DNA of 64,000 nucleotides from Kineococcus sp. NBC_00420 (GTDB lineage Bacteria; Actinomycetota; Actinomycetes; Actinomycetales; Kineococcaceae): positions 1-64,000 of the forward strand of contig NZ_CP107930.1 of assembly GCF_036021035.1 (NCBI RefSeq). The letters run 5' to 3'. The position numbers were made by a program, and so were the translations under genes. Below, piece after piece: positions 4,586 to 14,861 of the stretch (within the stretch, counting starts at the first letter, position 1; the number at the start of each line of letters is the position of its first letter). The notes beneath the pieces are model-generated. The model saw only the letters and a list, made by a program, of their open reading frames with translations, ran no database searches and was not told the DNA's origin.

Positions 4586-5263
4586 GCGGCGGGGCGTTCC
4601 ACAGGGCGATCGTCGCCAGGTCGTGCTCGTTGCTGAGGACGCAGAGGTGACCGACCTGCACGGGGAAGGCCGACCCCTGCTGCAGCGGCAGGGCGAGCCA
4701 GTACGCGGCCAGCACCCGCAGCACGTGCGCGTGGGCGACGACGAGGACGGGCCCGCGCCCCAGTGCCTCGCGGACCCGGTCGCGGACCCGGTCCAGGAAG
4801 CGGTCGACCCGCACCCCGACGCCGGCGGCGTCCCCCGGCGTCACCCCGGCAGGCACGCCGTGGCGCCACAGGACCCACGGGGGTCAGCCGGTGGCAGCGC
4901 GCTCGGCCTGGATGTCGACCGTGCGCCGGCCCTCGTAGGCCCCGTAGTCCCCGTAGTCCCCGTAGTCCCACTCGACCAGGTCATCGCTGACCTGGCATCA
5001 CGGACGCCGGCGAGCTGCGCGGTGCGTCGAGCTCGCAGGCGCGGGCTCGACCAGGCGGCCGCGAAATCCCATCGGGCCAGCACGGGCGCCAGCGACCGCG
5101 CCTGGGCCTCCCCCTGCGGAGTGAGGGGGATGTCGGTGGTGCCGGTGTACTGGCCGCTCAAGTTCCACGCGGTCTGCCCGTGGCGCAGGAGCACTAGGTC
5201 GTGACCAACGGCGGCCGTCAGCGCGCTCACGGCAGTGGAGCCGGGTCGGGCGGAAGCTGTCAA
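4586..5263 (-). pseudogene. Histidine-phosphatase (phosphoglycerate-mutase-like) pseudogene
   Basis: The N-terminal frame begins well ([39 protein letters not shown]). Near 5005 the reading continues in another frame as [20 protein letters not shown]. That frame meets a TGA after ERAATG (about 4884) and then resumes in frame as [13 protein letters not shown] and VLVVAHAHVLRVLAAYW. There is therefore a frameshift, an in-frame stop and a 9-bp expansion inside the family motif EWDYGDYEG. The function is lost unless the sequence contains errors. Confidence 0.8.
4941..4967. repeat. 9-bp tandem repeat, 3 copies, inside phosphatase pseudogene
   Basis: CCCGTAGTC occurs three times head to tail. In the pseudogene's frame it triplicates Asp-Tyr-Gly in a conserved loop that normally reads DYGDYEG. 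Confidence 0.85.
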
Positions 5264-5299
5264 GCCCGGTGAGACACGGACTATCTACGCACTTTGAAT

Positions 5300-5770
5300 C
5301 TAGGCCTCTCGGCTGGGTTGGTTGATCCAGGCCGATGTCGGCAACGCCGGCGGGTGGGGCCGGCGGGATCCAAACCGTTCGGGGTGGGCGGCGTAGGCGC
5401 CGTCCAGGGTGACCTGGCGGGCCGCTCGGACCTGACCTGCGGTGCCGTGATGCACCGAGGCCGGGGTGTGCAGCCCGATCCCGCAGTGGCGGTGGACGTA
5501 GTTGTAGTGGTTGAAGAACACCGCGCAGAACTTCCGCGCGTCGTGCAGAGTGGCGAAGCGGGCTGGGAAGGCCGGGGCGTACTTCAACGCTTTGAACTGC
5601 GCCTCGCTGTACGGATTGTCGTCCGACACCCGCGGACGGGAGTGGGAACGGGTGACGAGGTCAACCAGCAGTTGAGCCACCGGTTTCGACGTCATCGAGG
5701 TGCCCCGGTCGGCGTGGACGACGTCTGTCTAGCAATGGATCGTAAGCCTCTGAAGTCCATGACCAGCACA
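5300..5770 (-). pseudogene. IS3-family transposase remnant (C-terminal)
   Basis: The minus strand reads VVHADRGTSMTSKPVAQLL, then DDNPYSEAQFKALKYAPAFP and FFNHYNYVHRHCGIGLHTP, the C-terminal half of an integrase-core transposase. Upstream, traces such as FFYVLVMDF are broken by stops. The sequence differs from the remnant at 1.7-2.1 kb, so the two are separate insertions. No intact ends were found. Confidence 0.75.
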
Positions 5771-5899
5771 TAGAAGAAACACTACGTGGGCGGGGAACAA
5801 GGCCGGTTTCTGCCTCGACCAATCAGTGGCCGAGGGGGCCGCCAAGGGTCGCGGTAGTCACGGGTGAAGTCGGTCGTCTTCTACGTCCACCAAAGGAGC

Positions 5900-6745
5900 T
5901 CAGTCTTGAGAGGGTCGTCTTAGGTCTGACCATCGCTGCGGGGTACGCCCGTCCTTGACGGGTGTGTAGATCACGATGTGGAGGTCCGGCTGGTCACTTG
6001 GCGTCAACTGGTGATGCTCAAGGAGCAGGTCACCGGTGCTGGGGTGGTGGAACAACCGCTCGCGTGAGCTGAAGCCTTGGATGTCGTGGTCGCTCCACCC
6101 CGCCGCGAAGGCAGGGCTGGTGTCGCGCAGCCGCTGAATGAGCGCGGCGATACCCGGCTCACCGAGTCGGGGACCGGCCTCGGCGCGGAACTCCGCCAGG
6201 AAACGCCGGCTGTCCTGCTGCCAATTGGGTAACAGTCGGCGCACGTAGGGATCGGTGAACACCAGCCACAGGAGGTTGCGGTCCTCAGGGGTGACGGTCT
6301 CGACGCCGGGGTAGAGCGTGGCGTAGGCGTCGTTCCAGCCCACGATCTGCCAGTCGTGGGCGATGGCGAAGCTGGGCAAGCCGACCTGGGCGTCCAAGAG
6401 CCGCTGCACGTGGGCGGGGACAGTTCGCGGCGTGTGCTCTTCTTCAGGCAAGGGAGCGGCGTAGCCGGCGAGGGAGAGCACGTAGGCGTGCTCCGTACCC
6501 GACAGATGCAGGGTGCGTGCCAGGGCATCGAGAACCTGCCGCGAGGGGTGGGTGTCTCGGCCTTGCTCCAGCCAGGTGTACCAGGTCACGGAGACACCGG
6601 AGAGCGCAGCGACCTCCTCCCGGCGCAGCCCGGCGCTACGCCGGCGTGCCCCCTCGGGCAGGCCGAGGTCTGAGGCGCTGAGCTGGCCGCGGCGGCTGCG
6701 CAGGAGATCCCCCAGCTCGCGTCGACGGCTCTCGCTGCTCACCAC
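5900..6745 (-). CDS. MmyB-type helix-turn-helix transcriptional regulator
   Basis: 281 aa. An XRE-type helix-turn-helix occupies about residues 10-80 (AGLRREEVAALSGVSVTWYT, LDALARTLHLSGTEHAYVLS). A C-terminal MmyB-like, PAS-related ligand-binding domain follows (AHDWQIVGWNDAYATLYPG, NLLWLVFTDP). Members are usually repressors of a neighbouring oxidoreductase gene and may bind fatty-acid-like ligands; the ligand here is unknown. It is divergent from ilvD with about 70 bp between, and operator-like palindromes lie just before its GTG start. Confidence 0.88.
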   Translation of the reverse strand: MVSSESRRRELGDLLRSRRGQLSASDLGLPEGARRRSAGLRREEVAALSGVSVTWYTWLEQGRDTHPSRQVLDALARTLHLSGTEHAYVLSLAGYAAPLPEEEHTPRTVPAHVQRLLDAQVGLPSFAIAHDWQIVGWNDAYATLYPGVETVTPEDRNLLWLVFTDPYVRRLLPNWQQDSRRFLAEFRAEAGPRLGEPGIAALIQRLRDTSPAFAAGWSDHDIQGFSSRERLFHHPSTGDLLLEHHQLTPSDQPDLHIVIYTPVKDGRTPQRWSDLRRPSQD

Positions 6746-6752
6746 AGCAGGA

Positions 6753-6773
6753 TAGTGGTGTCACTACTAGTAG
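6753..6773. promoter_or_regulatory. Operator-like palindromes in the regulator/ilvD gap
   Basis: TAGTG-GTGT-CACTA at 6753-6766 overlaps the perfect palindrome CTACTAGTAG at 6764-6773. It is a plausible binding site for the adjacent regulator, which would control itself and perhaps ilvD. This is inference from position and symmetry. Confidence 0.4.
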
Positions 6774-6818
6774 CAGCGGCGTCTTCCTCCTGGCTGCACG
6801 AGGCGGCACAGTGCGGCC

Positions 6819-8678
6819 ATGCCCCCTCTGAGATCCAGGACCGTCACCCACGGACGGAACATGGCCGGTGCTCGTGCGCTGCTGCGCGCGGCCGGCGTCG
6901 CCCGTGAGGACTTCGGCAAGCCGATCATCGCGGTGGCCAACAGCTTCACCGAGTTCGTCCCCGGCCACACCCACCTGCAGCCGGTGGGGCGCATCGTCTC
7001 CGAGGCGATCCACGCCGCAGGCGGTATCGCGCGGGAGTTCAACACCATCGCCGTCGACGACGGCATCGCCATGGGCCACGACGGGATGCTGTACTCCCTG
7101 CCCTCGCGCGACCTCATCGCCGACTCGGTGGAGTACATGGTCGAGGCACACTGCGCGGATGCGCTGATCTGCATCAGCAACTGCGACAAGATCACCCCCG
7201 GGATGCTGATGGCCGCGCTGCGGTTGAACATCCCCACCGTCTTCGTCTCCGGTGGCCCCATGGAGGGCGGCACAGCCGTCCTGGTCGATGGCACCGTCCG
7301 CACCCGCCTCAACCTGGTCTCCGCGATCGCCGACGCGGTCGCCACGGACGTCTCCGACGCCGACATCGCGCGTATCGAGGAGGCGGCCTGCCCCACCTGC
7401 GGCTCCTGCTCGGGGATGTTCACCGCGAACTCGATGAACTGCCTCACCGAGGCCCTCGGCCTGGCGCTGCCCGGCAACGGGTCGGTGCTGGCCACCCACA
7501 CCGCCCGCAAGGCGCTTTACCAGGACGCCGGCCGCACCGTCGTCGACATCACCCGGCGCTACTACGAGCAAGACGACGAGACCGTCCTGCCGCGCACCAT
7601 CGCCTCGCGCGCCGCCTTCGACAACGCCATGTCGCTGGACATCGCCATGGGCGGGTCGACCAACACGATCCTGCACCTGCTGGCCGCGGCCCAGGAGGCG
7701 GGCCTGGACTACACGCTGCACGACATCGAGCAGCGCTCACGTCAGGTCCCCTGCCTGACCAAGGTCGCCCCCAACGGGGTCTACCTGATGGAGGACGTCC
7801 ACCGCGCCGGCGGGATCCCCGCGATCCTCGGCGAGCTGGACCGCGGCGGCCTCATCGACCACCAGGTCCACACCGTGCACTCGGCCTCGGTGGCGGACTG
7901 GCTGAAGAACTGGGACGTGCGCAGCGGATCGCCCTCACCGGAGGCGGTGGAGATGTTCCACGCCGCCCCCGGCTGTGTCCGCTCGGCCACGGCGTTCTCG
8001 CAGTCGCAGCGATGGGAATCCCTCGACGTCGACGCCGCGGCTGGCTGCATCCGCGACGTCACCCACGCCCACTCCGCCGACGGCGGGCTGGCGGTGCTGC
8101 GCGGCAATCTGTCCCCAGACGGGGCCGTGGTGAAGACCGCGGGCGTGGACGAGTCCGTGTGGACCTTCTCCGGTCCGGCCGTCGTGGTGGAGTCCCAGGA
8201 GGACGCCGTCGAGGCGATCCTGTCCGGGCGCATCAGCCCCGGCGACGTCGTGGTCATCCGCTATGAGGGCCCACGAGGTGGGCCGGGTATGCAGGAGATG
8301 CTCTACCCGACCTCCTACCTCAAAGGCCGCGGCCTGGGAAAGACCTGCGCATTGATCACCGATGGGCGCTTCTCCGGAGGTACCTCGGGACTCTCGATCG
8401 GCCACGTCTCACCCGAGGCGGCTTCCGGCGGCACCATCGCCCTCGTCGAGGACGGCGACACCGTCGTCATCGACATCCCCACCCGCCGTCTGCACCTGGA
8501 CGTGCCCGAAGAGACTCTCCAGCAGCGACGGGCTGCGCTGGAGGCCAGCGGCGGCTACCGCCCCCGCCACGTGCGCCCCCGGAAGGTGTCCAGTGCCCTG
8601 CGGGCCTACGCAGCCCTCGCCCTCTCAGCCGACAAGGGGGCCGTGCGCGACGTTGCCCGGCTCGACCAGCTGCGCTGA
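6819..8678 (+). CDS. ilvD: Dihydroxy-acid dehydratase
   Basis: 619 aa, the length of the E. coli-type enzyme. It dehydrates 2,3-dihydroxy acids to 2-oxo acids in valine, isoleucine and pantothenate synthesis and needs an iron-sulfur cluster. Cluster cysteines lie in [11 protein letters not shown] (about residue 122) and [18 protein letters not shown] (about 191-209). [19 protein letters not shown] marks the C-terminal domain. No other branched-chain gene is nearby, so this may be a second or displaced copy. The ribosome-binding site is weak. Confidence 0.95.
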
Positions 8679-8725
8679 TGCCCGAGCACTCCCACCTCAC
8701 TCGAGCACTTCTTCCTCCTTCAGGT

Positions 8726-8777
8726 ACTCCCACCTCGACCGAGAACTCCTACCTCGACCGAGAACTCCTACCTCGAG
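8726..8777. repeat. 19-bp tandem repeat between ilvD and eno
   Basis: About two and a half copies of ACTCCTACCTCGACCGAGA lie between the convergent ends of ilvD and eno, running into the last codons of eno. Further degenerate ACTCC(C)ACCTC units lie just to the left. Confidence 0.75.
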
Positions 8778-10105
8778 GATGAAGGATCGACGGGAAGCCC
8801 GTAGGCCCACTGCGGGTAGTCGGCGCTGAGCTCGCTCAGTCGGTTGTACTTGGCGAGGCGCTCCCCACGAGCGGGGGCGCCCGCCTTGATCTGCCCCGTG
8901 GCGCCGCCCACGGCGAGGTCGGCGACGAACGTGTCCAGGGTCTCTCCCGAACGGTGGGAGACCATTGTGGTGAAACCGACGTCACGGGCGGCGGCCAAGG
9001 CATCCAAGGTGCGTGAGACGGTGCCGATCTGGTTCGGCTTGATGAGGGCGGACGTCGCCAAGTTCTCACGTGCGGCGGCTCGGATGCGGCCGGGATCGGT
9101 GACCAGCAGGTCATCGCCGACGATCTGGATCCGCTCCCCCAGCCGCCGGGTCATCTCTTGCCAACCGTCGAGGTCATCCTCTGCGCAACCGTCCTCGATG
9201 CTGCGGATCGGGTAGCGATCCAGCAGTTCCTCGTAGAGGTCGATGAGCCCGCTGGCGTTCACGCGTTTGTCCGAGGTCAGGTGGTAGGAACCGTCGCGAT
9301 GGAAGCTGTTGGCGGCCGGATCCAACGCGATAGCCACCTGATCACGCTCTGCGGTGTAGCCGGCGGCCTCGATCGCTTCGACCAGCAGGTCGAGGACTTC
9401 TTCGGGGCAGGTCAGACGCGGAGCGAACCCACCCTCATCACCCAGGCCGGTGTCGTGCCCAGCTTGCTGCAACAAGACCTTCAAGCGGTGATGGATCTCG
9501 GCGCCGCACTGCAACGCCGAGACGGTGTCCGGTGCACCGACCGGGGCGATCATGAACTCCTGGAAAGCGAGACCGTTGGCGGCGTGAGCGCCGCCGTTGA
9601 TGACGTTGAAGTGAGGAACCGGCATACGGGGAACTTGCCCGCTCTGCCTGGCGATCCACTGCGCCACAGTGAGACCAGCGGCCGCGGCAAACGCACGAGC
9701 GGTGGCCATCGACACCGCGATGACGGTGTTGGCGCCCAGTCGCGACAGGTTCGGTGTCCCGTCGAGGGCGTGCAGCGCGTCGTCGACCTCGCGTTGATCG
9801 CTCCAGTCGCGACCAGAGCACAGCAGGTCGGCGACGGGACCTGTAGCCGCAGTCAGAGCAAGATTCACCCCTCGCCCATCGAAACCTCCGACTCGTTGCC
9901 ACGGATCAGACTCCCGTCCGCTGGGTGGCGGCCCGTCTGTACCTGAGCCGTCCCGTAGTTCCACCACTTCGTGTGCACCGGTTGAGGCACCGGAGGGGGT
10001 ACTGGCGATCATGCTCGACCCGTCGGGCAGATGCAGGCGGACCTCCAGGGTCGGGTAACCCCGGGAGTCCAGAATCTGACGGGCATCCAGACGGTCGAAC
10101 TTCAC
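8768..10105 (-). CDS. eno: Enolase (probable fluoride-locus copy)
   Basis: 445 aa from the GTG of VKFDRLDARQILDSRG, placed about 6 bases after GGAG. A longer frame starts at TTG 10177 but only adds residues encoded by a 12-bp repeat. It converts 2-phosphoglycerate to phosphoenolpyruvate. Active-site blocks are all present: FQEFMIAPVGA, LGDEGGFAPR, ALDPAANSF, SIEDGCAEDDLDGW, VGDDLLVTD, ALIKPNQIGT, SHRSGETLD and IKAGAPARGERLAKYNRL. Enolase is the classic fluoride-inhibited enzyme. Here it follows gpm behind a fluoride riboswitch, so it is probably an induced spare or less sensitive copy. Resistance itself is not visible in the sequence. Confidence 0.93.
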   Translation of the reverse strand: MKFDRLDARQILDSRGYPTLEVRLHLPDGSSMIASTPSGASTGAHEVVELRDGSGTDGPPPSGRESDPWQRVGGFDGRGVNLALTAATGPVADLLCSGRDWSDQREVDDALHALDGTPNLSRLGANTVIAVSMATARAFAAAAGLTVAQWIARQSGQVPRMPVPHFNVINGGAHAANGLAFQEFMIAPVGAPDTVSALQCGAEIHHRLKVLLQQAGHDTGLGDEGGFAPRLTCPEEVLDLLVEAIEAAGYTAERDQVAIALDPAANSFHRDGSYHLTSDKRVNASGLIDLYEELLDRYPIRSIEDGCAEDDLDGWQEMTRRLGERIQIVGDDLLVTDPGRIRAAARENLATSALIKPNQIGTVSRTLDALAAARDVGFTTMVSHRSGETLDTFVADLAVGGATGQIKAGAPARGERLAKYNRLSELSADYPQWAYGLPVDPSSSR

Positions 10106-10117
10106 GATGGGCTCCAG

Positions 10118-10190
10118 GGTCTCGGGCAAGGTCTCGGGCAAGGTGTCAGGCAAGGTCTCTGGCAAGGTGTCAGGCAAGGTCTCGGTGTCG
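10118..10190. repeat. 12-bp tandem repeat between gpm and eno
   Basis: About five or six copies of GGCAAGGTCTCx / GGCAAGGTGTCA lie in the gpm-eno gap. If read in the eno frame they encode LPETLPDT repeats. Enolases start near the downstream GTG, so the repeat is more likely untranslated spacer. Confidence 0.85.
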
Positions 10191-10216
10191 TGCAGGTCGC
10201 GAGCAGGTGAGGACGC

Positions 10217-10999
10217 TCAGGTGCCCCCCTCCTCCGCCACGGCCCGGGCAGCAACTGCAGCAGCCTTCGGGTCCAGGTAGCGCCCGCTGCCCGGCACCAC
10301 CCCGCGCCCGCCGACGTCATAGACCAGCGGCTGGCCCGTTGGGACATTGAGTTCGATGACCTGTTCCTCAGAAAGGTGGTCCAGACGCATGAGGAGCGCA
10401 CGCAATGAGTTTCCGTGAGCCACGGTCAGCACCCGCATCCGCAGGGCGAGGGCGGGGTAGAGAGCCTCGTCGAGCCAGCAATCGATACGGGCAAGCACGT
10501 CGGTCAAGGACTCACTGATCTCCGAGGCTGCGGCGGGCGGGCCTTGACCGGGCGCACCGTCCCAGTCGACTGCAGGACCAGTGCGTTGCAGCTCGCTGGG
10601 AGTAGGTGGGCGCACCGAAAGTGACCTCCGCCAGATGTGGGCCAGGTCCGCACCGAACTCCGCTCGAACCCGACTCTTGCGCATCCCCGTGAGGACGCCG
10701 TACCCACGTTCGATCAGCTCCGCGTCAACATGGATCTCAGGTCGAGCACCGGTGGGATACAGCACGTCGAGCACGAGGTCAGCGGTGCGGGTGGCTCGCT
10801 GCAGAGGAGAAGAGAAGACGATGCCCGGCCGCCACCCACTGTGGTGCAGCAACTCCGCGGCTACAGCCGCTTGACGGACCCCATCGGGAGAAAGTGAGAC
10901 ATCCCAGTGCCCGGTGAAGCGACCGGCAGCGTTGGCTGAACTCTCACCGTGACGCAGCAGGACCAATCCCGCCACGCCATCCGCAGCATACTCGCGCAC
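10217..10999 (-). CDS. gpm: 2,3-bisphosphoglycerate-dependent phosphoglycerate mutase
   Basis: 260 aa, a histidine phosphatase. The phospho-acceptor histidine is in LVLLRHGESSANA, the partner histidine in VLTVAHGNSLRALL, and the family block GRFTGHWDVSLSPDG is intact. It interconverts 3- and 2-phosphoglycerate, the step before enolase. It is the first gene after a fluoride riboswitch, starts at GTG after CAGG, and is followed by eno about 110 bp later. It is probably expressed with eno under fluoride stress. Confidence 0.9.
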   Translation of the reverse strand: MREYAADGVAGLVLLRHGESSANAAGRFTGHWDVSLSPDGVRQAAVAAELLHHSGWRPGIVFSSPLQRATRTADLVLDVLYPTGARPEIHVDAELIERGYGVLTGMRKSRVRAEFGADLAHIWRRSLSVRPPTPSELQRTGPAVDWDGAPGQGPPAAASEISESLTDVLARIDCWLDEALYPALALRMRVLTVAHGNSLRALLMRLDHLSEEQVIELNVPTGQPLVYDVGGRGVVPGSGRYLDPKAAAVAARAVAEEGGT

Positions 11000-11005
11000 A
11001 ACAGA

Positions 11006-11096
11006 CCTGCCCCTCTGACTCGATCAGGGACAGGAACCATCAGCCGACTCGGCGGTTCGAGCGGTTGTACGCTCAGGCGGGATCCATCACCACGCC
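11006..11096 (-). ncRNA. Fluoride riboswitch (crcB motif) with Shine-Dalgarno-sequestering stem
   Basis: The minus strand reads GGTGATGGATCCCGCC, then AACCGCTCG and AACCGCC, then GGCTGATGGTTCCT. This order of conserved blocks matches the crcB/fluoride aptamer. Downstream, CCTGTCCC (11027-11034) can pair with GGGGCAGG (11006-11013), with one U-G pair. That stem would hide the CAGG ribosome-binding site of gpm. The 5' half of the stem overlaps the aptamer's 3' end, as expected of a translational switch. Confidence 0.8.
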
Positions 11097-11185
11097 AGAG
11101 ATTACTCTCGTTCGGGGTCGGCCACCACTCCCGCTACCAGCCCTGTTGCTGCCGCCCCCGCCTTCATGCCGGAAGGTTCCACCTC

Positions 11186-11713
11186 GTGTCTGCCAACACC
11201 CAGCCTGCGGGCGGCGCTCCTGCACCACGCGCTAGGCCTCGTCCCGTGCATCTGTCGGCCCCGATAATCGCCATCGTGGCCGGCGGGGCACTGCTGGGGA
11301 CCGCCGCGCGCTACGGTCTCGCGCTGCACTGGCCCGTGCGCACCGCAGCCTGGCCGTGGGCGACGTTCACCGTGAACCTGATCGGCGCTTTCGCCTTGGG
11401 CTTCCTGCTGGAGGCGTTGGCGCGCCGGGGTGAGGACGCCGGCCGTCGACGGCTCGTGCGACTCGGGGTCGGTACCGGCTTCCTGGGGGCGTTCACCACC
11501 TACAGTTCGCTGGCCGTCGAGACCGACATGCTGGTGCACGCTGCCCGACCCGCCCTGGCTGTGGCCTACTCCCTCGCCAGTGTCGCCGCGGGGCTGATCG
11601 TCGCACTGGCCGGGATAGCGCTGGCCGCAGGTCACCACCGGTGGCGTTTGAGCCGCTTGCCGCAGGACCCGGACGCGGTCGACACCAGCCCCGCAGCAGG
11701 AGGGAAGCGATGA
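11186..11713 (+). CDS. crcB: Fluoride channel subunit CrcB/Fluc 1
   Basis: 175 aa from GTG, 9 bases after GGAAGG. Four membrane segments are readable. Fluc motifs include GGALLGTAARYGL, TFTVNLIGAFALGF with the conserved Asn, and GTGFLGAFTTYSS with the Phe/Thr-Ser lining. Fluc dimers export fluoride from the cytosol. It overlaps the next crcB by ATGA, so the pair probably forms a heterodimer. The N-terminus has about 28 extra residues before the first membrane segment. It is divergent from the riboswitch-controlled gpm-eno genes. Confidence 0.92.
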   Translation: MSANTQPAGGAPAPRARPRPVHLSAPIIAIVAGGALLGTAARYGLALHWPVRTAAWPWATFTVNLIGAFALGFLLEALARRGEDAGRRRLVRLGVGTGFLGAFTTYSSLAVETDMLVHAARPALAVAYSLASVAAGLIVALAGIALAAGHHRWRLSRLPQDPDAVDTSPAAGGKR

Positions 11714-12087
11714 CCATCTGGGTCTTCGCGGCCGCGTGCCTGGCCGGCTCGCTGGGAGCGGTGAGCCGCTTCGTCGTCGACGGGGAGATCCGCCGACGCC
11801 GGCCGTCGTCGTTCCCGTGGGCGACGCTCGTCATCAACGTCACCGGCTCGCTGCTGCTGGGGATCGTCACCGGTGTCGTCGTGGCGCACGGGGAGCCGAC
11901 GGTGTGGAAGACGGTCGTCGGTACGGGATTCTGCGGTGGCTACACCACCTTCAGCACAGCCATGGTCGAGACGTTGCGGTTGGCACAGGGCAAGGCCACC
12001 ATCGCGAGCATGACGTACGCCCTGGGCACCCTGGTGGCCGCGACGGCCGCAGGCGGCACGGGTCTAGGCCTCGGGTGGTGGCTGTGA
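11710..12087 (+). CDS. crcB: Fluoride channel subunit CrcB/Fluc 2
   Basis: 125 aa, four membrane segments. GSLGAVSRFVVDG, WATLVINVTGSLLLG and GTGFCGGYTTFSTAMVET are the family motifs. Its ATG overlaps the stop of the first subunit and AGGAGG lies just upstream. Adjacent crcB pairs in Gram-positive bacteria usually encode the two halves of one dual-topology channel. The last codons overlap the start of the universal stress protein gene (GTGA). Confidence 0.93.
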   Translation: MTIWVFAAACLAGSLGAVSRFVVDGEIRRRRPSSFPWATLVINVTGSLLLGIVTGVVVAHGEPTVWKTVVGTGFCGGYTTFSTAMVETLRLAQGKATIASMTYALGTLVAATAAGGTGLGLGWWL

Positions 12088-12581
12088 GCCCGCCGAGACG
12101 CCCGGTCGTCGTCGGTTTCACCCCCACGGCTTCCCCGCGGATCCTCCTAGAAGCTGCCAGCCTGGCCCGGGCTTACGACGTGCCGTTGATCGTGGTCTTC
12201 AGCGACCCTTCCCGCTTCGTCGAAGGGCGCCGCGCGGATGGGAGTCCCATCGTCGTGCCCGTCGATTCCGACACCAGCGAGATCATCGACGACGCTCCCG
12301 CACCGCAGGTCGCCGAGGTCGGGGCACGGGTCGAAGGCATCATGACCGACAGTGGTGTCGAGGACGTGGCCATCGAAGTGCGAGGGCTCCTGGGAGAACC
12401 CGCGACGACCCTGGCTCAGCTGGCCCTCGAGGTCGATGCGCGGTTCGTCGTGGTCGGGGCTCGGGCCCACGGTTGGCGGGCTTCGCTGCACGAGCTGGTA
12501 GAGGGCTCGGTGGCAGTGCACCTGAGTTCGCGCCAGCCCGCGACGGTGGTCGTGGTCCCGGCCGCGCCCGACACGCCATGA
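12084..12581 (+). CDS. Universal stress protein (UspA family)
   Basis: 165 aa from GTG overlapping the crcB stop. The N-terminal strand PVVVGFTPT and the C-terminal nucleotide-binding motif VVGARAHG plus ELVEGSVAVHLSSRQPATVVVVP are typical of Usp proteins that bind ATP. As the third gene of the crcB operon it is probably a fluoride-stress accessory, but its exact role is unknown. Its last codons run into an 18-bp repeat. Confidence 0.88.
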   Translation: MSPPRRPVVVGFTPTASPRILLEAASLARAYDVPLIVVFSDPSRFVEGRRADGSPIVVPVDSDTSEIIDDAPAPQVAEVGARVEGIMTDSGVEDVAIEVRGLLGEPATTLAQLALEVDARFVVVGARAHGWRASLHELVEGSVAVHLSSRQPATVVVVPAAPDTP

Positions 12582-12693: not shown

Positions 12694-13806
12694 TCAGCGG
12701 TCGAGGAGGGTCACCCCGGCGTAGGCGACAGCGGCGACGAGGATCCAGGAGGCCAGCCCGAGGAGCAGGGCGCGCCCACCCGTGCGGCGCAGCGCCGGCA
12801 GGTGGATGCCGGTGCCGAGCCCGACCAGGGCGGCGACGAGCAGGACCTGCTGGACGACCTTGACGTCGGCCAGGGCCGCCGCCGGCAGCACACCGGTGCT
12901 GCTCACGACGATGGCGGCCAGGAAGCCCGCGACGAAGAGCGGCAGGACGGGCGGCCGCCGCGCCTGGGCGCCGGGTGCGCCCTCGCGTGAGGGCTGCTCA
13001 GCAGCGGCGCGGCGCAGGCGCCGGGTCCGTACGAGCGCCACGCCGGTGACCAGGGGGGCGAGCAGGACCACGCGGCTGAGCTTGACCACCACCGCTGCGG
13101 TGAGGGCTCCGGGGACGCGGCTGGCCGTGGCGACGGTCTGTCCCACGTCGTGCACGCTGGCGCCGACCCAGCTGCCGAACGCGGTCGGGTCCAGGTGCAG
13201 CGGCCCCCGCAGCACCGGCAGGAGGAAGATCGCGAGGCTGCCGCAGAGCGTGACCAGCGCGATGGCGACACTGGTGTCCTCCTCGTCTCCGTCGGCGACG
13301 GGTTCCATCGCCGCGACCGCCGAGGCCCCGCAGATGGAGAAGCCGGTGGCGATCAGCAGCGACCGGGCCCGCCCCACGCCCAGCGCACGCCCGAGCAGCT
13401 GGGTTCCGGTGAAGGTGACCGCGACCGTGACCACGACGACGGCCAACCCGCCCAGGCCCAGGGAGGCCAGCTGCGCCAGGGACAGCTGCAGACCGAGCAG
13501 GACGACGGCGATGCGCAACAGGCGCTTGGACGCGATCCGCGTGCCCGGGCGCAGAACGGGGCGGTGCAAGCCGCAGTTGACCAGCAGCACACCGAGCACG
13601 ACCCCGGCCGTGGTGGCGTTGACGGCAGGCACGAGCCAGGCGATGCCGTAGGCCGCGGCGGTGGCCGCAGCCACGACGAGCAGCCCGGGCCACGGGGACG
13701 CACGCTCGGGGCGCGGGGCGGGACCCGTCGAGGCCGATGGAGAAGACGGCGTCGCGGCGGTGCGGGGTGTGCCGGTCGAGGGGATCGAGACGTTCTCTTC
13801 GCTCAC
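12694..13806 (-). CDS. YeiH/UPF0324-family putative sulfate exporter
   Basis: 370 aa with about ten hydrophobic segments. Family blocks are present: GVVLGVLLVNCGLH, LLRIAVVLLGLQLSL, FSICGASAVAAMEPV and WVGASVHDVGQTVATAS. The N-terminal 35 residues are Ser/Pro/Thr-rich and probably cytosolic. YeiH proteins are predicted anion exporters and are often controlled by an adjacent divergent LysR gene, as here. The substrate is unproven. Confidence 0.9.
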   Translation of the reverse strand: MSEENVSIPSTGTPRTAATPSSPSASTGPAPRPERASPWPGLLVVAAATAAAYGIAWLVPAVNATTAGVVLGVLLVNCGLHRPVLRPGTRIASKRLLRIAVVLLGLQLSLAQLASLGLGGLAVVVVTVAVTFTGTQLLGRALGVGRARSLLIATGFSICGASAVAAMEPVADGDEEDTSVAIALVTLCGSLAIFLLPVLRGPLHLDPTAFGSWVGASVHDVGQTVATASRVPGALTAAVVVKLSRVVLLAPLVTGVALVRTRRLRRAAAEQPSREGAPGAQARRPPVLPLFVAGFLAAIVVSSTGVLPAAALADVKVVQQVLLVAALVGLGTGIHLPALRRTGGRALLLGLASWILVAAVAYAGVTLLDR

Positions 13807-13859
13807 GCCACCACTGTGGGCCGGTACCGCCGCGACCGGTAGCGGTGTCCTGATGATGT

Positions 13860-13882
13860 AGTCATCGAAGGTCTCGATGACT
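13860..13882. promoter_or_regulatory. LysR-type operator in the divergent gap
   Basis: AGTCATCGA-AGGTC-TCGATGACT is a perfect 9-bp inverted repeat with a 5-bp spacer, centred 28 bp before the LysR GTG and about 65 bp before the transporter start. LysR regulators bind interrupted palindromes of this kind. Confidence 0.68.
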
Positions 13883-13898
13883 GCCGTAGCGTGGGGGG

Positions 13899-14861
13899 GT
13901 GGACGTCGACCTGCGTCGGGTACCGGACCTGGATTCTCTGCAGCTGCTGGTGCGGGTGGCCGAGCTGGGCAGCCTCAGCCGTGCCGGGCGTGCGCACGGC
14001 ATCGGTCAGCCCGCCGCCAGTGCCCGTGTGCTCGGCATGGAGCGCCGGATGGGGACCGCCCTGGTGCAGCGCTCGGCCCGCGGCTCGATCCTGACCCCGG
14101 CCGGGGCGCTGGTCGTCGGCTGGGCCCGCGATGTCCTCGCGGCCGCCGCCGGACTGGGGGCGGGCATCGCGTCCCTGAACGCCGAGAGCGCCAGCCGGCT
14201 GCGGGTCGCGGCGAGCATGACGGTCGCCGAGCACCTGCTGCCGAGCTGGTTGGTGCGCCTGGCCGCGGCCAGCCCGGGTACCGCCGTCAGCTTGCAGGCG
14301 ATGAACTCCACCGAGGTCGCCGCCGCGGTCCTGGCGGGCGACGCCGACATCGGATTCGTCGAGGGCCCGGACGTCCCTGCCGGGCTGGAGACCAGGAGCA
14401 TCGGCAGCGACCGCCTGGTCGTCGTCGTCGCTCCCGGCCACCCGTGGACCCGGCGCCGGCGGGGCATCGACGCCGCCGAGCTGGCCGGAACCCGTCTGGT
14501 GGCCCGCGAGGCGACGTCGGGCACCCGCGCCGCGGCCGAGGCGGCGCTGCGGGCCGCCCTGCGGAGCAAGCAGCCCGGCGGCGGGTGGCACGAGGTGGCA
14601 CCGGCCCGGCCGGTGCTGGAACTCTCGACCACCACCGCGGTGCGCGCAGCCGTCGCCGAGGGCGCCGGCCCGGCGGTGCTCAGCCACCTCGCCGTCGAAC
14701 AGGACGTCGCCGCGGGACGTCTGGTGCTCGTGCAGGTCGAGGGGGTGGATCTGCGGCGCACGCTGCGCGCGGTGTGGCCGAGTGGCCAGCGCCCCCGGGG
14801 CCCCGCCCAGGACCTGCTCGCCATCGTCAACACGACCCCCCGGCGGGCACGAGCTCGGTGA
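13899..14861 (+). CDS. LysR-family transcriptional regulator
   Basis: 320 aa from GTG. The winged helix-turn-helix is at about residues 8-65 (LDSLQLLVRVAELGSLSRAG, QPAASARVLGMERRMGTALV). A two-lobe effector domain follows (LRVAASMTVAEHLLPSWL, VLAGDADIGFVEGP, TRLVAREATSGTRAAAE). It is transcribed away from the YeiH-type transporter and is probably its activator and its own repressor. The inducer is unknown; sulfur compounds or a related oxyanion are possible. Confidence 0.92.
   Translation: MDVDLRRVPDLDSLQLLVRVAELGSLSRAGRAHGIGQPAASARVLGMERRMGTALVQRSARGSILTPAGALVVGWARDVLAAAAGLGAGIASLNAESASRLRVAASMTVAEHLLPSWLVRLAAASPGTAVSLQAMNSTEVAAAVLAGDADIGFVEGPDVPAGLETRSIGSDRLVVVVAPGHPWTRRRRGIDAAELAGTRLVAREATSGTRAAAEAALRAALRSKQPGGGWHEVAPARPVLELSTTTAVRAAVAEGAGPAVLSHLAVEQDVAAGRLVLVQVEGVDLRRTLRAVWPSGQRPRGPAQDLLAIVNTTPRRARAR

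Follow-up and report, generated by a model that had tools for sequence, protein, structure and literature searches.

A probable fluoride riboswitch ahead of a second gpm-eno pair in Kineococcus, and a recurring candidate pairing of its aptamer with the ribosome-site region

Enolase is the classical fluoride-inhibited enzyme of glycolysis, and the crcB motif was reportedly identified as a fluoride riboswitch by Baker in 2012. Terminators are described as overlapping many crcB motifs (Weinberg 2010, PMC2864571), and the account of the fluoride riboswitch in PMC11077080 includes a linchpin pair, A40-U48. About 15% of Fluc genes are reported to be under riboswitches, and enolase is reported to occur often in riboswitch operons (PMC11139923). 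Enterobacter cloacae FRM has a fluoride-induced six-gene operon, ppaC-uspA-eno-gpmA-crcB-orf5249, under a fluoride riboswitch, and knock-out and complementation are reported to show that this operon confers resistance (PMC5533749). Control of eno and gpmA by a fluoride riboswitch is therefore already on record, and the locus described here adds another case. Its most interesting part is a pairing in the expression platform that recurs among related loci.

We analyzed a stretch of 64,000 nucleotides from Kineococcus sp. NBC_00420 (positions 1 to 64,000 of contig NZ_CP107930.1; hereafter the window). An earlier note, made from the letters of this DNA, had read the crcB aptamer blocks in order on the minus strand and proposed an Rfam covariance search as a check. 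That search (cmscan) bore the reading out: RF01734 is the single match at E up to 10 in 10900-11400 (501 bases, both strands), it covers the model completely (1-64), and all core blocks are present in order, namely GGUG-AUGGAUCC-CGCC, a 15-base insertion, AACCGCC..GGC, UGAUGG and UUCCUG. When cmscan was run at the Rfam gathering threshold the window came back empty, since the aptamer scores 33.1 bits against a cut-off of 34, 0.9 bit short. The gathering cut-off is a curation threshold and no biological feature; the shortfall lowers certainty and does not by itself exclude membership. Genome-wide, RF01734 matches once, at this aptamer (E 4.9e-7), and the model found no second aptamer either in 10900-11400 on both strands or in the rest of the genome. 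RF01734 is present in 1 of 12 genomes of the family.

As read from the sequence, the pseudoknot strands GGAUCC and GGUUCC can form five of six pairs, with one U-U mismatch. U11032 is presumed to be the linchpin base, for which we take the numbering of the published A40-U48 pair to transfer to this RNA. The aptamer is placed in the 5' leader of gpm-eno, with the crcB pair adjoining and a -10-like hexamer upstream (Table 1). The locus is a sound, fairly ordinary example of the known fluoride switch, and its aptamer should bind fluoride. Our main reading, to which we assign a probability of about 0.65, is that this riboswitch turns the gpm-eno operon on when fluoride enters, most likely at translation; both the direction of control (ON with fluoride) and translation as the controlled step are what we infer for it.

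Table 1. Coordinates of the features of the locus (positions in the window).
Feature	Position	Strand	Basis
ilvD, dihydroxy-acid dehydratase, second copy; possible cluster member, outside the switch	6819..8678	+	profile matches; Clavibacter parallel
eno, island-lineage enolase, second copy; true start uncertain	8768..10177	-	Pfam; TIGR01060 458.7 bits, cut-off 300
gpm, 2,3-bisphosphoglycerate-dependent phosphoglycerate mutase, second copy	10217..10999	-	PF00300 (histidine phosphatase); TIGR01258 171.7 bits, cut-off 81.7
GGGGCAGG, candidate sequestered ribosome-binding region	11006..11013	-	duplex; overlaps script-chosen best SD match
Fluoride riboswitch aptamer (RF01734)	11024..11100	-	covariance match 33.1 bits, E 1.9e-7
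CCUGUCCC, candidate anti-SD strand, first three bases in aptamer core	11027..11034	-	pairing in sequence, duplex test
UGAUGG, pseudoknot 3' strand GGUUCC (11038-11033) and U11032	11032..11042	-	cmscan alignment
Stem P3, GCCG/CGGC	11043..11053	-	sequence and cmscan alignment
Extra hairpin GAGCG-UACAAC-CGCUC, absent from Rfam model	11059..11074	-	15-base cmscan insertion; stem read from sequence
Stem P1, GGUG/CGCC, loop AUGGAUCC	11076..11091	-	sequence and cmscan alignment
Pseudoknot 5' strand GGAUCC, in P1 loop	11085-11080	-	sequence and cmscan alignment
Likely -10 hexamer TAATCT, 7 nt before P1	11099..11104	-	TANNNT spacing across loci
crcB1, Fluc-type channel subunit, divergent	11186..11713	+	PF02537; start script-chosen
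crcB2, second channel subunit (limits are those of the ORF; actual start probably further in)	11641..12087	+	PF02537
ORF with universal stress protein domain at residues 122-275	11736..12581	+	PF00582

The earlier note had also stated that the switch faces gpm-eno and that the channel genes diverge from the same gap without the motif. Both statements hold: gpm and eno lie downstream on the minus strand and Pfam confirms their families, the crcB pair lies on the plus strand, and the RF01734 search found no aptamer in its leader. A crcB pair without a switch is no surprise, because only about 15% of Fluc genes are reported to be riboswitch-controlled (PMC11139923). The genes gpm and eno are 39 bases apart on the same strand and would be co-transcribed. 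The nearest other full-length gpm match (C1:1757205) is 43% identical and also carries PF00300, and the genome's other eno is at C1:1443638. Two other gpm-related loci were found; at the gathering threshold both lack a riboswitch, and both are probably housekeeping. The eno ORF opens with a short tandem repeat (LPETLPDT...) ahead of the conserved part, at about 10100-10180 (minus strand).

Two further crcB matches lie at C1:3111654-3112357; among 11 other genomes of the family, nine have exactly two crcB matches, one has four and one has none, and a second eno is found in 1 of 12 family genomes. The crcB pair, gpm, eno and the universal stress protein gene (usp) apparently form a fluoride-resistance island that is patchily distributed and acquired. 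Because ilvD adjoins eno in the window and follows eno on Clavibacter plasmids, we list it as a possible cluster member, and dihydroxy-acid dehydratase may be a regular component of such clusters; the window's copy is 42.7% identical to the Clavibacter plasmid copies and 40.7% to the genome's other copy. A YeiH-family gene and a LysR regulator occupy 12694-14861, and this LysR shares 45-46% identity with LysR proteins encoded close to the Micrococcus and pCM2 clusters described below. No pyrophosphatase was found among the neighboring window ORFs scanned. Beside the cluster, a short ORF with an integrase core (rve_3; 5300-5695, minus strand) is a possible remnant of a mobile element.

A strict sigma-70 scan gave no hit ahead of the aptamer. 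With the Rfam match as anchor, 23 of 33 loci (one per genus, the window counted) have a TANNNT hexamer whose first base lies 11-16 nt ahead of P1, compared with a mean of 1.19 and a maximum of 6 in 2000 mononucleotide shuffles. An earlier, motif-anchored count gave 16 of 32 and left the window out, its anchor being 3 nt off. Given this spacing, transcription probably begins close to the aptamer's first stem.

In the mechanism we propose, the transcript would start near that first stem. With fluoride absent, CCUGUCCC at the 3' end of the aptamer would pair with GGGGCAGG and hide the gpm ribosome-binding site. Fluoride and Mg2+ would lock the pseudoknot and the linchpin pair and keep CCU within the aptamer, and with CCU held there the weakened hairpin would give the ribosome access. 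The outcome would be extra phosphoglycerate mutase and enolase, with the divergent CrcB channels made independently.

The pairing on which this mechanism turns was put forward in the earlier note, and we confirmed it in the sequence: CCUGUCCC (11034-11027) and GGGGCAGG (11013-11006) can form 8 bp, including one G-U, 6 nt 5' of the GTG at 10999, and CCUGUCCC overlaps the final pseudoknot bases and the presumed linchpin U. The duplex between the aptamer's last 14 bases and the next 70 has an energy of -17.5 kcal/mol. An energy this low is reached in 49 of 2000 dinucleotide shuffles, and in one case when the downstream region is exchanged in turn for those of 32 other genera. Taken alone, the pairing is only moderately unlikely to be due to chance.

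We therefore turn to related loci, pairing the last 14 bases of each aptamer with the 70 bases that follow it or with the corresponding stretch from another locus. The class set lists 39 RF01734 places, of which 36 were extracted and 33 entered the duplex test (G185, G126 and G218 were dropped, their matches falling short of the model end). The order set also has 39 places: 27 new loci, 26 of them used (L122, a partial match, was dropped), three loci and G059 shared with the class set, and eight left out. Combined, the sets give 59 rows from 33 genera, with a start codon placed in 32 of the 33. When each genus contributes one locus (n=33), the duplex energies add up to -487.9 kcal/mol for own partners and -403.3 +/- 13.9 kcal/mol for permuted ones, the own-partner sum being reached in 0 of 1000 permutations in a comparison that leaves the tree of the loci unmodelled. 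Taken separately, and again with one locus per genus, the class set (19) gave 1 of 1000 and the order set (14, Rfam-based anchors) 0 of 1000. When the downstream regions were dinucleotide-shuffled, 0 of 100 sets reached the real sum, whether for all 33 loci, the class or the order. An earlier hydrogen-bond score on 32 of the 36 class loci (G383, G368, G218 and G185 dropped as weak or partial, as in the first -10 count) was 577 for own partners versus 493 +/- 15 permuted (0 of 500). Thinning the order loci to 15 genera under a cruder motif anchor, which misplaced at least two rows (L104 and L121), left an own-partner excess that was not significant (110 of 1000); all 27 rows under this anchor gave 0 of 1000.

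In 16 of 32 loci, one of them the window, the paired segment shares 2 nt or more with the SD that the script chose; random placement gives a mean of 7.0 and reaches 16 in 2 of 5000 trials. The remaining 16 loci show no such overlap. The frequency of T downstream of this segment is barely raised (0.172 versus 0.155, 32 loci). Both results speak against a reading in which the riboswitch and its targets are the same and the hairpin acts on transcription, by intrinsic or Rho-assisted attenuation, like the Bacillus cereus switch. We judge such attenuation unlikely here, while granting that the fluoride riboswitches analyzed in PMC11077080 are transcriptional, that many crcB motifs are overlapped by terminators (PMC2864571), and that the window's own hairpin has 8-9 GC-rich pairs and an 11-nt loop and is followed by TCTGTTGT, with five T in eight. 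A terminator scan also gave no match, though its loop limit of 8 would miss that 11-nt loop. Because of this SD overlap and the near-absence of T enrichment, some half of the loci, including the window, are best read as switches that mask the ribosome site. By eye, the order mates L097, L098, L099, L101, L102, L106 and L107 have CCUGYCC-like, GGGCAGG-like and CUGCCC-like strands in the interval from aptamer to SD; they may have a platform of another kind, built from several strands, in which a third strand possibly competes.

The fold of the whole leader is not unusual (z -1.38; 19 of 200 shuffles equally good). Locking the aptamer in a constrained fold takes GGGGCAGG from a mean accessibility of 0.06 to one of 0.29, with A11008 and G11007 as the only bases freed; the GUCCCU/AGGGGC pairing persists, and the hairpin goes from -15.1 to -9.3 kcal/mol, a weakening that would admit the ribosome. 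Accessibility of the GUG start in the model is 0.05/0.07/0.81 before locking and 0.14/0.11/0.03 after, leaving the start closed. So little release of the ribosome site is a point for attenuation, and because the model frees two bases only and the start codon stays closed, our confidence in the switch mechanism is slightly lowered. Of the translational switch claimed in the earlier note, what stands is a pairing that is locus-specific across 33 genera and an SD overlap in 16 of 32 loci; for this locus the switch is unproven, given this fold model and an ambiguous start codon.

That start is either 10999 or 10975, and the SD-pairing reading assumes 10999. The alternative GTG at 10975, 24 nt further in, would bring gpm nearer its usual length and place the start farther from the hairpin. 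The TIGR01258 match starts at residue 12, which is model position 3, and a start at residue 9 gives the usual N-terminus. Our start-choosing script prefers 10999, and the SD match at 10975 is poor by eye. Were 10975 the true start, GGGGCAGG would be one strand of a multi-strand switch as suggested by several order mates, and masking would be indirect. L097, L098, L099 and L101 indeed have a GGGCAGG upstream of the SD that is able to pair with a CUGCCC-/CUGCC-like strand (by eye), but in the window the interval from GGGGCAGG to 10975 holds no third strand resembling CUGCCC (also by eye), and we consider this arrangement improbable.

The 15-base insertion in the aptamer recurs among relatives. 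Stems of at least 3 pairs stand at this place in 29 of 59 rows, with 17 distinct stems in 17 other genera, under a lax criterion and with the window row read by eye. For the 18 insertions that were parsed, one per genus, the summed folding energy is -103.8 versus -55.7 +/- 7.5 for shuffled letters; the insertion was found in these 18 of 33 rows, with 10 rows unparsed and 5 without insertion, and within the set the window row was cut short and gave no fold, L103 and L121 were unfolded, and G368 did worse than its own shuffles. Relatives with a similar insertion reach scores above the RF01734 cut-off, and the insertion is probably no defect of the aptamer. These relatives, together with the genome-wide E of 4.9e-7, the kept core blocks and -10 spacing, and the adjoining crcB and eno, make it highly improbable that the element is a chance or decayed look-alike whose RNA no longer binds fluoride, for which its score below the gathering cut-off and the one mismatch in the pseudoknot might be cited.

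A tree of 37 enolases separates 14 island-type sequences, the window's included, from 23 housekeeping ones with support 100/100; the island label here denotes similarity to the window, and the housekeeping set consists of the best-scoring rows together with the genome's own enolase. The window sits on a long branch, and two of the plasmid rows are almost identical copies. In the stretch seen, 10 of the 14 island-type enolases have crcB or an RF01734 match, counting G034, whose match is weak (24.3 bits) and on the opposite strand. Two more have only a DUF190 neighbor (annotated in L127, by Pfam in L094), and G140 and G085 have no crcB, RF01734 or DUF190 in the stretch seen. Eight class genomes, the window's own included, have an island-type enolase, and RF01734 matches in 7 of them versus 25 of 394 overall; G085 has no RF01734 match anywhere in its genome despite its island-type enolase. 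A by-eye comparison with two solved enolases for signs of a fluoride-tolerant active site found no obvious loss of conserved motifs.

More broadly, and as a proposal that we consider less likely than not, Actinomycetes may have a largely translational subclass of fluoride riboswitches in which the pseudoknot/linchpin strand is the anti-SD, so that locking and ribosome-site release are one event, often with a P2-like extra hairpin; in the window it would drive an island-enolase lineage that is maybe less fluoride-sensitive than the housekeeping enzyme. The titles and abstract openings of the open-licence papers searched name neither translational fluoride riboswitches in Actinobacteria, whose absence is not thereby shown, nor the recurring pairing of aptamer and ribosome-site region. 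The arrangement in the window suggests a cell that meets fluoride by restoring the step of glycolysis that fluoride poisons and that keeps its channel genes under separate control. If our reading of the recurring pairing is right, many high-GC bacteria run their fluoride switches by direct masking of the ribosome site, and the island enolases are an obvious group in which to seek fluoride tolerance.

The locus resembles the RF01734 riboswitch in its aptamer blocks and their order, its place in the leader of fluoride-related genes and its presumed action as an ON switch. It departs from the RF01734 model in the extra hairpin between P1 and the AACCGCC block, and its platform pairs with the ribosome-site region where the crcB motifs described in 2010 have overlapping terminators (PMC2864571). 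Like the window, actinobacterial plasmid clusters from Clavibacter (pCT1 and pCM2), Micrococcus luteus (pSGAir0127), Rhodococcus qingshengii and Streptomyces (pFRL5) have two crcB and an island-type eno in 5 of 5 cases and, within the stretches seen, gpm or a histidine phosphatase in 4 of 5 and usp in 3 of 5 (the pCM2 stretch is cut at the record start). The Clavibacter plasmids share ilvD with the window, and Micrococcus and pCM2 share a related LysR. Gene order and directions differ from those of the window, and so does the riboswitch site, which is before glnA on pCT1 and pCM2, before crcB in Rhodococcus and further upstream on pFRL5; the Micrococcus luteus cluster has no RF01734 match at E up to 0.5. 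On the Clavibacter plasmids (L124, 9650-9723, and L126, 6344-6417, both minus strand) the riboswitch before glnA (glutamine synthetase) scores 35.7 bits, near crcB-crcB-ppa-eno-ilvD.

Genome G174 of the same class (L046) has riboswitch-ppa-gpm-eno on one strand and is like the window in a riboswitch followed by gpm and eno, and unlike it in that pyrophosphatase comes first and three more riboswitches lie in the cluster. The four matches of L046 fall within about 6 kb (5234-11537), in both directions. In E. cloacae FRM the channel and the enzymes are co-transcribed, in the order eno-gpmA and with ppaC, whereas in the window only gpm-eno lies behind the switch, the crcB pair points the other way, gpm comes before eno and the scanned neighbors include no pyrophosphatase. 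What the window shares with that operon (PMC5533749) is a fluoride riboswitch in front of additional eno and gpmA copies, in an island that also carries crcB and usp.
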